Source: Alphaproteobacteria bacterium (GTDB lineage Bacteria > Pseudomonadota > Alphaproteobacteria > Sphingomonadales > Sphingomonadaceae). From it: a stretch of 47,217 nucleotides of DNA. The notes beneath the pieces were generated by a model. That model was not told the DNA's origin, ran no database searches, and saw only the letters and a list, made by a program, of their open reading frames with translations. The DNA lies in the NCBI GenBank assembly GCA_018823905.1, contig JAHJHL010000211.1, positions 1-47,217 of the forward strand, in the 5' to 3' direction. Shown in pieces: positions 14,510-18,386 of this stretch. Numbering within the stretch: the first letter of the stretch is position 1; each line of letters opens with the position of its first letter. Made by a program: the position numbers and the translations under genes.

Positions 14510-15490
14510 TCAGGGCGCGAACCGACGTTCGCGGATCCAGCGCGATGCAATATATTTGGTCCCGCTGACGACGGGCATCCCGCAATGCTCCGATGCCGGA
14601 TCGACCGAGCCATCGGGCAGCGTGTTGCGGAACAACAGCAAGTCGCCCTTGCGACCCTTGAACTTCAACGGGGTTTTGACGAAATTTGTCTCGCCGCCCT
14701 TATAGTCGTGATTGAGGTAGATCAGCGCGGTCGTGACCCGCTGATTGTCGAGCTGCGGATTATAGTCATAGTGTGAGCGATATTGCTGGCCGGGGCGATA
14801 GCGCAGCAACTGGATCGCTTCGCCGCGATCGGCGTCGCTCTCCGCCACGGCGGCAATCCGGCGATTGATGGCGTGCACGACGGGATCTTCGATCAACCAG
14901 TGCAGCGTGAACTCATCGCTGTTTCGAATGGGGTCAAGCCGCGTCCCGCCGCGGCCGTCGTTGATCTGCGCCGGGCGATAGTTTTTGCCGCCCGATTCGA
15001 GCAGATAGGCGCACTCGGCCGCGGTCGCAAAACCCGGAAACCGCAAAACATCGGGGGCATCGGACAGGCGTTCGGGTTTGCGGCACGTTTCGGGATTGCC
15101 CGCTGGGGTCAGCGCCATTTTTGCGAGCAGATCGATCTGTACTTTTCGGCGCGGGTCGATGGTCGCTTCGCCGGGCATTCGGGCGAGCGCGGCCAGCCAG
15201 TCGCGCGGCCCGGCGATGCCACTGGCCAGCAGGTTCGTGCTGACGATCCGGGCCGGGCCATGTCCCGCCTTTGCCGCAAGGTCGAACTGGACGCGGGCTG
15301 CGACGGGGTCGGAGGCGAGGGCGCCGCCGCCCCACAGGTTGCGCGCCAGCACGAACAAAGCATCGGGGTGGCCCTGGGCGGCAAGCTGGCGAATGAGGAG
15401 CATCGCCTCCTCGGGCCGTCCGGCGCCCGCGAGCGCTTCGGCGCGGGCCATGAGGGGATGCTTTTGCTGGGGGCTGTACTGCGATGCCAT
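14510..15490 (-). CDS. Sel1-like repeat / prolyl 4-hydroxylase-type 2OG-Fe(II) oxygenase
   Basis: This 326-residue protein has an N-terminal helical repeat region (about 10-115, with LIRQLAAQGHPDALFVLARNL and AARVQFDLAAKAGHGPA, Sel1/TPR-like) and a C-terminal prolyl 4-hydroxylase alpha-subunit-like domain (about 140-326). The iron ligands are visible as H240 and D242 (YRSHYDYN) and H302 (SEHCGMPV), and K312 (GTKYIASRW) is placed to bind 2-oxoglutarate. No signal peptide is seen, so it should act in the cytoplasm. Its target is unknown. It is convergent with dprA and divergent from a gene for a proline-rich secreted protein. Confidence 0.87.
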   Translation of the reverse strand: MASQYSPQQKHPLMARAEALAGAGRPEEAMLLIRQLAAQGHPDALFVLARNLWGGGALASDPVAARVQFDLAAKAGHGPARIVSTNLLASGIAGPRDWLAALARMPGEATIDPRRKVQIDLLAKMALTPAGNPETCRKPERLSDAPDVLRFPGFATAAECAYLLESGGKNYRPAQINDGRGGTRLDPIRNSDEFTLHWLIEDPVVHAINRRIAAVAESDADRGEAIQLLRYRPGQQYRSHYDYNPQLDNQRVTTALIYLNHDYKGGETNFVKTPLKFKGRKGDLLLFRNTLPDGSVDPASEHCGMPVVSGTKYIASRWIRERRFAP

Positions 15491-15638: not shown

Positions 15639-17255
15639 ATGAAAAGCAAATTTCTGACATCGGCGACATTGTTTGCGGTTTTGGCGACGGGCGCCGGACC
15701 GGTACCGGTTGCGGCGATCCATGCGAGGGAAGCGTCAGGGCAGGGTTTCTGCCGTACCGCCGATCCACTGCCGCGGCTCGATCCCGAAGTTCAGCCGCAG
15801 CAGCAGCCATCGAACGGCAGCATCAAGACCAAGGGCGGCAGCAAGCACGATCGCGAGACCAGCATGGCTTCGGAGCCGATGCCACCTCCGCCGCCACCGC
15901 CACCGCCTCCTCCGCCGCCCGCTTATGCCGGCGGAGCGGATGAAGCGGCGATCGCTGTCACCGGCTCGCGAATCTCAAGACCCGATCTGGAATCGGCCAG
16001 TCCGGTAACCGTCATCGGATCGGATATGTTGGGAGAACTGCCCGCTTCTGCGCCGCCCGTTCCGGGATCGAGCACGGATTCGCGCGTGATGCCACCACGC
16101 CCCTATCCGCGACCGCAACCGCAACCGCAACCGCAGTCGGGCATCCTGACCGCGGGCGAGCATGACGATTTGCTCAACCCAGAGCTTTACGCAGCCTATG
16201 TGAACCGCAGCGCTAACTTGGGGCAGGAGGTGCGTAGCTTGCCGCGCGTCGACACGACACGGGTCGTGACGGTGAAGGTCAACGACCGCAGCGGCCAGCC
16301 GATCCCCTTCGCTGACGTCGTCGTGACGTGCAGCGACGGCAACAGCATCACCATGGCGACGCAGGCCGACGGCAGCGCGGTGTTCTTTCCCGGCCTCGAC
16401 CGGTTGAGCGATCGGATCACGGTGACGGCGCGCAAGGCGGGGCGGACGATTGCCGACGCGCGCCCGGTGCTGGTTACCAATGCGGCGGGGGGGCAGCTAG
16501 TTGGGCTGACCGCCAATCAGGCGGCGACGAAAGTGACCAAGCTCGACCTGATGCTCGTCGTCGATACGACGGGCAGCACGGGCGACGAGATCAACTATTT
16601 GCAGTCCGAACTGCGGTCGATCATTTCGTCGATCACCGCCAAGCATCGCAACCTCGACATCCGCATCGGCTTCGTTTTCTACCGCGACCTTGGCGACGAA
16701 TATGTCACGCGCACGGTCGTTTTCGATCGCGATATCGGGCGGGTGCAGGGCGCGCTTGCGCGCCAGAATGCCAATGGCGGCGGCGATCATCCCGAGGCGA
16801 TGGATCAGGCGATGATCCGCGCCGTCGGGCAGGACTGGCGCCCCGATGCGGTGAAATCGCTTTTGCTGGTGGCCGACGCGCCGCCGCACGACCAGCTGTT
16901 CGGGCGCACCTGGCAAGCCGCCGAAGCAGCGCGCGCCAAGCGCATCCACATCACCCCGGTCGCGGCATCGGGGGTCGCCGACAAGGCCGAATATGCGATG
17001 CGCGCGATGGCGGCGGCAACCCAGTCGCGCTACCTGTTCCTGACCGACGACAGCGGCGTCGGCAATCCGCACGCCCCGCCGGCGATCGATTGCTATCTGG
17101 TGACCAAGCTCGACGCGCTCGTCCGCCGCGTGATAGACACTCAGATCAGCGGCCGACGCATCGAGCCCGAGGATCAGGAGATCATCCGCAGCGTCGGCAA
17201 ATATGACGCGGGCAAATGCATCCTGCCCGCCGACTTCAAATGGCAGAACGGCTAA
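15639..17255 (+). CDS. Secreted proline-rich vWA domain protein with TonB-plug-like segment
   Basis: This 538-residue protein has a signal peptide (about 1-30), a low-complexity region with 13 consecutive prolines (82-94), a short segment AAIAVTGSRISRPDLES followed by SPVTVIGSDML (about 103-131) that reads like the TonB box and plug start of a sphingomonad TonB-dependent receptor, a PRPQPQPQPQ stretch (about 155-165), an Ig-like or carboxypeptidase-regulatory-like domain (about 203-290), and a von Willebrand A domain (about 304-510). The MIDAS motif is D309-T-T-G-S313. There is no receptor barrel. The ATG at 15639 follows GGGGAGCGTTC. The function is unknown; a metal-dependent binding role in the periplasm or at the surface is likely. 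Confidence 0.85.
   Translation: MKSKFLTSATLFAVLATGAGPVPVAAIHAREASGQGFCRTADPLPRLDPEVQPQQQPSNGSIKTKGGSKHDRETSMASEPMPPPPPPPPPPPPPAYAGGADEAAIAVTGSRISRPDLESASPVTVIGSDMLGELPASAPPVPGSSTDSRVMPPRPYPRPQPQPQPQSGILTAGEHDDLLNPELYAAYVNRSANLGQEVRSLPRVDTTRVVTVKVNDRSGQPIPFADVVVTCSDGNSITMATQADGSAVFFPGLDRLSDRITVTARKAGRTIADARPVLVTNAAGGQLVGLTANQAATKVTKLDLMLVVDTTGSTGDEINYLQSELRSIISSITAKHRNLDIRIGFVFYRDLGDEYVTRTVVFDRDIGRVQGALARQNANGGGDHPEAMDQAMIRAVGQDWRPDAVKSLLLVADAPPHDQLFGRTWQAAEAARAKRIHITPVAASGVADKAEYAMRAMAAATQSRYLFLTDDSGVGNPHAPPAIDCYLVTKLDALVRRVIDTQISGRRIEPEDQEIIRSVGKYDAGKCILPADFKWQNG
16115..16138 (+). repeat. Short tandem repeat coding for Pro-Gln
   Basis: Four near-identical copies of CCGCAA/CCGCAG lie in tandem inside the vWA protein gene and encode (PQ)4. 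Such tracts are prone to length change. Confidence 0.8.
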
Positions 17256-17387: not shown

Positions 17388-18386
17388 ATGAGAAAATTAT
17401 CAGCGGGTATCGCCGTGGTTGCGATGCTGGCACAGCCTGCCGCCATTGCCGCCAAAGAAAAGGAACCGGTCAAGATTTCCGGGCCGTCGAACGCCAAGGG
17501 TGTAACGACGGTCGCAATTGGTGCGTTTAACATCGGCTTCATCTTTGAATCGACCGACAGCAAGGCCGCTACCGGCGGGTTGATGGGCGCGTTTGGCGGG
17601 GCGACCAAGGCGAAGAGTGAACTGGTCGGCGTGACGCCATCGATGATGCAATCGATCGCCGATGCAGCCTATGCCGACTTTGTCGGGCAATTGTCGGCGC
17701 AAGGCTATGCCGTGCAGCAGCCCGACGCCTTGTTTGGCCACTCCGCTTTAGCAAAAACTAAATCGCTCGACGTGCCGCTGGAGCTTTCAGTCCAGTTGGA
17801 AAAGGGCAGCAAAGGCGAGGCTACGTACTTCAAACCTTCAGCGCTGCCTTCGCTATTGATGATCCCGGGCGACCATTCGGGTGGAGGCGGCTTTGGCGGG
17901 ATCGGCATGAACATGTCGATCGGGCAGGCAAGCATGGCGCTGACCAAATATGCCAGGGATGCGGGAGTCGGCGTGATCGATGTGACCTACCTTATCGATT
18001 TTTCGAACCAGAAACGTCCCGGCGCCTTCAGTTTCGGAGGTGGGATCGAGGTCAACAGCGGTCTGTCGGTCACCGCCGATTATTCGCGTGTGACGCTGAT
18101 TGCTCCGAACGGGAAGCAATCGACTCTCACGGTCAAAACGCCCGTCGCGGTCGAGGGCGAGTTTGTCGAAAAGGCCGACGCCTCAACCGGCACTGAGAAG
18201 GCGGTGCAATCGACGGCGAATGTGGTTGGCGGACTCGCGGCGGCGGCTAATATCGGGCTGCCGCGCTTCGGAAAGACGCGCAAATTCCAGTTCACCGCCA
18301 AGCCCGAGGCGTATGAAGCGGGTGCGGTGAAGGCAGCGAGTCTGGCAAATACATTGCTGGTGGGGCGGCTCGGAACGCTTCGCTGA
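17388..18386 (+). CDS. Secreted protein of unknown function
   Basis: This 332-residue protein has a signal peptide (MRKLSAGIAVVAMLAQPAAIA, cleavage near residue 22). The mature part is glycine- and serine-rich without cysteines, with GVTTVAIGAFNIGFIFES near the start and a Gly-rich turn SGGGGFGGIGMN near 167-178. A strong ribosome site, TAGGAGAGAG, precedes the ATG at 17388. It follows the vWA gene on the same strand behind a hairpin and precedes topA. I do not recognise the family; envelope location is the only safe inference. Confidence 0.8.
   Translation: MRKLSAGIAVVAMLAQPAAIAAKEKEPVKISGPSNAKGVTTVAIGAFNIGFIFESTDSKAATGGLMGAFGGATKAKSELVGVTPSMMQSIADAAYADFVGQLSAQGYAVQQPDALFGHSALAKTKSLDVPLELSVQLEKGSKGEATYFKPSALPSLLMIPGDHSGGGGFGGIGMNMSIGQASMALTKYARDAGVGVIDVTYLIDFSNQKRPGAFSFGGGIEVNSGLSVTADYSRVTLIAPNGKQSTLTVKTPVAVEGEFVEKADASTGTEKAVQSTANVVGGLAAAANIGLPRFGKTRKFQFTAKPEAYEAGAVKAASLANTLLVGRLGTLR

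Follow-up and report, generated by a model that had tools for sequence, protein, structure and literature searches.

Why should an exported protein that is not a TonB-dependent receptor carry, within a linker, what reads like the start of one? The question is raised by a gene for a secreted von Willebrand factor A (vWA) protein of 538 residues (positions 15639-17255, plus strand, as are all of its features below), delimited by its reading frame, Pfam matches to VWA_4 and VWA, and relatives. The gene lies in a stretch of 47,217 nucleotides from an alphaproteobacterium of the Sphingomonadaceae (contig JAHJHL010000211.1 of assembly GCA_018823905.1), referred to here as the window. In the initial annotation, made from the sequence alone, the segment was proposed to be either a recruited gene fragment or a free TonB box through which the protein contacts TonB. 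Based on our analysis, the observation is real and reaches further than first noted. We favor reading the segment as a free TonB box that has a function and is carried by a protein other than a receptor, and give this a probability of about 60%.

Likeness to receptor N-termini

The plug family PF07715 served as an independent guide to the receptors of the organism's own genome; it has 52 matches there (E 0.001), and the vWA protein is not among them. A profile of the region around the TonB box (A3) was built from 29 of 30 own-genome receptor loci (L119 was unread) with the vWA protein excluded, and was run against all six frames of the 3.69-Mb genome. The profile matches the vWA protein at positions 15936-16031 (residues 100-131, the TonB box and the start of a plug) with an E of 3.1e-8 and 35.5 bits. 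In total 40 places in the genome have an E below 1e-3, among which the 29 profile receptors match by construction; 39 also have a PF07715 match, the vWA protein being the sole exception. A hidden Markov model (HMM) of receptor N-termini, built from the same receptors and anchored on the plug, gives the vWA linker 32.7 bits, as against at most 8.6 bits over 3700 shuffled linkers (99th percentile 2.4), and at most 3.9 bits are reached by the 218 other window frames of at least 100 residues. The core of the box, IAVTGSR (residues 105-111, positions 15951-15971; located from the sequence, the HMM and motif counts), stands beside own-genome receptor boxes such as DIVVTGSRI, EIIVTGTR, DIIVTATKR and similar. 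The likeness to the start of a sphingomonad receptor first remarked on is thus borne out by both profiles, and the case that the segment would work like a TonB box is strong at the sequence level.

Of the receptor features, the vWA protein has the TonB box in its sequence while the PF07715 plug and the C-terminal beta barrel are absent. No plug or barrel family is among the Pfam matches to the protein at E 10, an 81-residue piece around the box (positions 15921-16163) matches no Pfam family at E 10, and the segment alone retrieves nothing from Pfam and NCBIfam. Where a barrel would be expected there is a vWA domain, as indicated by Pfam and the structural model, in keeping with the earlier statement that no barrel follows and that the protein runs on into Ig-like and vWA domains. 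The vWA protein is not a receptor, nor is it a simple receptor leftover. The word plug, used in the initial annotation in calling the segment plug-like, is too strong, given that the segment has no Pfam plug match and that most homologues keep little beyond the box. A plug-start-like SPVTVI (residues 121-126, positions 15999-16016) is clear mainly in Sphingopyxis relatives. The same holds, with a few other proteins added, for the additional receptor-like stretch ISRPDLESASPVTVI; some Sphingopyxis proteins keep about 20 residues past the box.

The box falls within a Pro-rich linker spanning residues 54-168 (positions 15798-16142; 29 Pro in 115 residues), recognized by its composition and by the predicted local distance difference test (pLDDT) of the model. 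The linker includes a run of 13 prolines (P82-P94, positions 15882-15920). The segment was originally placed directly after this run; the run is there, and since 10 residues (A95-A104) lie between it and the box, the adjacency is approximate. An AlphaFold2 model made with 25 sequences has a mean pLDDT of 71.0, with values below 50 at residues 1-33, 54-80, 92-168, 471-483 and 535-538. Given this very low model confidence, the box stretch is probably disordered.

Conservation and recurrence of the box

In a full-length search of 397 family genomes, 26 (its own genome among them) yielded relatives of the vWA protein, and among named records the closest are from Sphingopyxis. A scan of genome contigs with the single vWA protein confirmed no relative; a search with alignment A4 did confirm relatives. 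Our first sample comprised 37 vWA linkers, 13 of which were retrieved with the box profile or are the window protein itself (L035, L037, L040, L085, L087-L090, L092, L094, L096, L098 and the window protein). Of the 37, 30 have a loose motif, for which shuffling predicts 0.8, and 19 a strict one, for which it predicts 0.0; the scores of 27 exceed the 99th percentile of the shuffled linkers. A cleaner sample was found via peptides outside the box and consists of the best 80 of 431 loci by match to the vWA protein, with 77 readable linkers (L245, L275 and L292 were unread). The motif occurs in 54 of these 77 homologues, compared to 2.58 expected from shuffled linkers; when each linker is compared with its own shuffles, 55 pass the 99th percentile and 37 score higher than any shuffle. 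A relaxed motif, counted without a shuffle control, is found in 63. The survey of sphingomonad vWA proteins envisaged in the initial annotation thus finds the motif kept in most of the close homologues read, and the segment itself scores as a TonB box. At the box positions codons vary more than amino acids. In one homologue (L249), on a contig labelled Gemmatimonadaceae, the box is missing and the linker before TAGEHDD appears by eye to be replaced by transposase-like sequence.

Proteins of other families surfaced in the full-length vWA search and in a search with a profile of the vWA arm (A2), where most other listed matches were receptor-sized frames. In all, four families carry boxes, mostly on proline arms: the vWA proteins, YfbK-type vWA proteins, DUF4139-like proteins and TPR proteins. 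No plug match at E 1 was returned for the six non-receptor box proteins sent to Pfam. One of the sets is DUF4139-like (DUF4139 at 26.5 bits, below the Pfam cut-off), and 103 of 199 family genomes contain a relative. Here a single loop holds the box, in most cases preceded by a proline run, and the motif is present in 33 of the 33 proteins read, with 0.57 expected. Of these, 29 ranked highest in a full-length search made with a box-bearing query (L207, the remaining one of 30, was unparsed) and four came via the box profile or a match to the window arm, L086 having been dropped as a copy of L184. Over box positions 1-5 of the 33 proteins, amino-acid entropy is 0.33-1.57 bits and codon entropy 1.51-2.92. 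The neighboring DUF4139-like paralogue has the same loop and lacks the box in 23 of 23 cases, with a best HMM score of 1.8 bits (frames were read in 23 of the 32 loci tried, L184-L214 and L143). In the paralogues of L198 and L212 the proline run is present and the box absent. A reading frame on a 3.2-kb contig in a draft of about 550 contigs, in which a receptor N-terminus is fused to a DUF4139-like protein (L099:51-2192), is a probable assembly chimera and was not counted.

Box-bearing YfbK-type proteins, which belong to a separate vWA family, score 41.6 (L135), 19.6 (L153), 12.6 (L171), 11.0 (L145), 6.5 (L182) and 3.5 bits (L158), and some of them have a proline arm. Four (L135, L158, L171 and L182) are lipoprotein-like by inspection. 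A further candidate, L164, reached 2.9 bits and was not counted, as the box is absent by eye. These proteins come from 34 readable N-termini among 35 loci tried (L163 was unread), where L177, L178 and L180 begin at the end of the locus and may have cut N-termini. L153 (positions 1-1848 of the locus, minus strand) is from another alphaproteobacterial family and appears by eye to have the box plus about 55 residues resembling a receptor start; at E 1 it does not match PF07715. Among membrane-anchored TPR proteins the box was seen in six of the seven found, twice in three of them; two other matches of that search, L302 and L303, are receptors. Genome G324 encodes an ECF sigma factor, a YfbK-type vWA protein and a membrane TPR protein in a row (L135:1739-5356), of which the YfbK-type protein has a TonB box and the TPR protein two. 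Short frames at L136, L137 and L141 were read as cut or truncated receptors.

A proposed free TonB box and its alternatives

The sequence match, the conservation of the box and its recurrence in other envelope families are observed, as is the low confidence of the model around the box, a sign of probable disorder. Under the favored reading, the vWA protein would be exported, judging by its signal-peptide-like start, and its Ig-like and vWA domains would fold in the periplasm or envelope. The disordered Pro-rich arm would present a peptide of the type (D/E)-V/I-V-V-T-G-S-R, which the TonB C-terminal domain may accept as an added beta strand in the manner of a receptor box. TonB-ExbBD would thereby be recruited to, or pull on, whatever the vWA domain holds, and the same contact would let the vWA protein compete with receptors for TonB. 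Whether force transmission or competition prevails is speculative, as is any ligand of the vWA domain. By analogy, a flexible Pro-rich arm with a box in an exported protein appears well suited to contact TonB; together with the five TonB_C proteins encoded in the genome, this favors TonB binding.

Known systems offer partial precedents. According to passages of PMC11658791, the C-terminal domain of TonB takes in the box of a receptor as an extra beta strand, and TonB boxes are described for outer-membrane receptors and for imported bacteriocins, including colicins that contact TonB through a box of their own. Like TonB-dependent receptors, the window protein, taken to be exported, has a (D/E)-I-V-V-T-G-S-R box in a flexible region near its N-terminus and, along with some relatives, the plug spacing and SPVTV start after it; unlike them, it has no plug match or barrel, and its box is on a proline-rich arm preceding Ig-like and vWA domains. 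Like group B colicins, it is a non-receptor whose TonB box lies where the chain is disordered (PMC11658791). In contrast to these imported proteins it is apparently resident: its gene lies between dprA and topA, and of 80 related loci 68 have a dprA match and 71 a topA match. No toxin family is among its Pfam matches at E 10.

Other vWA proteins have been proposed to be motor-driven force transducers, some with a TPR gene beside them (PMC12204202). Those proteins likewise have a vWA domain and, as does the window protein, a proline-rich disordered linker; as that source presents them, they differ in being TonB/TolA-like transducers that replace TonB and have a membrane helix with an SHLS motif (PMC12204202). 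The SHLS motif is absent from the sequence of the window protein. With its signal-peptide-like start, no SHLS and a TonB box, it would instead be a client of TonB. The term 'TonB box' does not occur in the main text of PMC12204202. The YfbK-type proteins (PF12034/PF12450) have a vWA domain too, and a minority the same box; the window protein differs in having no match to YfbK_C (PF12034) at E 10, and its genome has no PF12034 match at 1e-10. A non-receptor tied to a sphingomonad TonB complex has been described in the phosphotriesterase (PTE) of Sphingobium fuliginis, which reportedly associates physically with TonB-ExbBD and, unlike the window protein, is an enzyme (PMC7142613). In the part of the open-access literature covered, no paper was found that joins a TonB box with vWA proteins or DUF4139 with TonB, or that describes such non-receptor box proteins.

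The free box is better supported than the recruited fragment with which the initial annotation paired it, because of its conservation and its presence in other families. A receptor-gene fragment may still have been the origin of the box, above all in the Sphingopyxis members that keep the ISRPDLESASPVTV stretch. At the DNA level, the segment gives a local score of 47 against the own-genome receptor L120, while 200 shuffles of the segment reach at most 30, which makes an origin from a receptor gene possible, though shared amino acids and codon usage could contribute to the score. The residues past the box in some Sphingopyxis proteins, and those seen by eye in L153 despite its lack of a plug match, would also fit a recombination relic, spliced into a tolerant linker and without function. 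A mere leftover accords poorly with a motif present in 54 of 77 homologues and in every DUF4139-like protein read with varying codons, and four families would demand repeated splicing and retention. We consider a functionless relic very improbable; with the box in most vWA homologues and in three other families, a stray gene fragment is an unlikely explanation. Less probable again is an artefact of chance or composition in a linker rich in Pro, Ala and Val. Such linkers are of low complexity, and the only match of a sequence search against the PDB, interleukin-11, was set aside as it came through the stretch with the proline run. The shuffle controls already contradict this explanation, in that no shuffled linker approaches the 32.7 bits of the real one and the motif far exceeds its expected count, and the paralogue loops score no higher than 1.8 bits.

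Two further alternatives grant the box a function. The proteins could act as a sink or brake, binding TonB solely to restrict or time its use by receptors and transmitting no force to the vWA domain. The numbers in the genome are compatible with this, the 52 plug matches facing 5 TonB_C genes over cut-off. A TonB-box pentapeptide, in work by Tuckman and Osburne from 1992, reportedly inhibits TonB-dependent processes in vivo. A sink accounts neither for the presence of the arm on vWA, TPR and DUF4139-like domains nor for the lack of the box in some lineages, and we regard it as unlikely. Alternatively, the strand could be read by another partner of receptor N-termini, such as a signalling domain or an assembly or sorting factor. 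Addition of a beta strand need not be specific, and in FpvA, as described in PMC11658791, the signalling domain makes a sheet with the protein's own TonB box. It is the box itself that recurs across the four families while the plug-start part is variable; a different reader of the box is still compatible with this pattern, and we rate such a partner as distinctly improbable, more so than a sink.

Several observations weigh against the favored reading. Among 385 genomes of the class, just two, the own genome and G522, gave a match to the arm-plus-box profile A2 better than 1e-6. The DUF4139-like protein of the own genome has a diverged box, EVTVTANRR, which A3 did not report at E 10. YfbK-type proteins have the box in only six of the 34 N-termini read, two of the six (L135 and L153) having been found through box profiles, and the query of the TPR search contained boxes, with L295 being the query itself. 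Among the vWA homologues, 14 of 77 are without even the relaxed motif, which has no shuffle control, and the tree requires 13 changes of state, so the box comes and goes and some lineages can do without it. In the vWA rows the low entropy of amino acids in the box is partly built in because 28 of 37 rows were picked by motif; this does not apply to the DUF4139-like rows, all of which match. The neighboring genes dprA and topA point neither to iron nor to transport, and so short a beta-strand motif could have a binding partner other than TonB. The A3 match in the genome, the 54 of 77 count, the DUF4139-like set and the contrast with its paralogue stand despite the caveats on entropy, the TPR query and the literature.

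Taken with the other families, the box suggests that TonB may act on more than receptors. Tentatively, and with confidence just short of an even bet, we propose that in sphingomonads and some other Alphaproteobacteria the TonB box is a portable docking tag on at least four families of envelope protein, and that a set of non-receptor clients is driven by the Ton motor or regulates it. If resident non-receptors carry the box, clients of the Ton motor escape searches for plugs and barrels. If true, the proposal would also make competition for few TonB molecules among many receptors testable with defined proteins, and give a handle on the uncharacterised DUF4139-like and envelope vWA proteins.

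Architecture and surroundings of the vWA protein

The protein begins with a signal-peptide-like segment of about residues 1-29 (positions 15639-15725, by inspection, with the cleavage site judged by eye), followed by a conserved element around Cys38, the Pro-rich linker, the box segment, a Pro/Gln linker and then TAGEHDDLLNPELY. The folded part starts at the conserved TAGEHDDLLNPELYAAYV (residues 171-188, positions 16149-16202), as indicated by invariant columns and a rise in model confidence. After the conserved TAGEHDDLLNPELY stretch come an Ig-like domain and the vWA domain. The former is CarboxypepD_reg-like (residues 210-281, positions 16266-16481) according to Pfam, at 23 bits and below cut-off, and to the beta strands of the model. 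The vWA domain (residues 304-473, positions 16548-17057) has DTTGS at residues 309-313 and matches VWA_4/VWA over the Pfam cut-off, with 41.4 bits for VWA_4; the top Foldseek matches to the model include vWA and integrin I domains. Cysteines 38, 231, 485 and 527 (positions 15750-15752, 16329-16331, 17091-17093 and 17217-17219) are invariant or nearly so in alignment A4, and the short element around residue 38 is modelled confidently. If the Cys38 element docks on the folded part, the box arm may form a closed loop.

A functional link between the vWA gene and its neighbors was sought across the 80 related loci and not found. Adjoining it divergently is a gene for a 2OG-Fe(II) oxygenase (PF13640, prolyl-hydroxylase-like; positions 14510-15490, minus strand), matched in 5 of the 80 loci. 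Because of this gene, hydroxylation of the proline arm was considered; it was dropped as the oxygenase is so rare. Downstream, an open reading frame for a protein of 331 residues without a Pfam match (positions 17391-18386, plus strand) follows the vWA gene; it has a signal-peptide-like start and is present in 25 of the 80 related loci.
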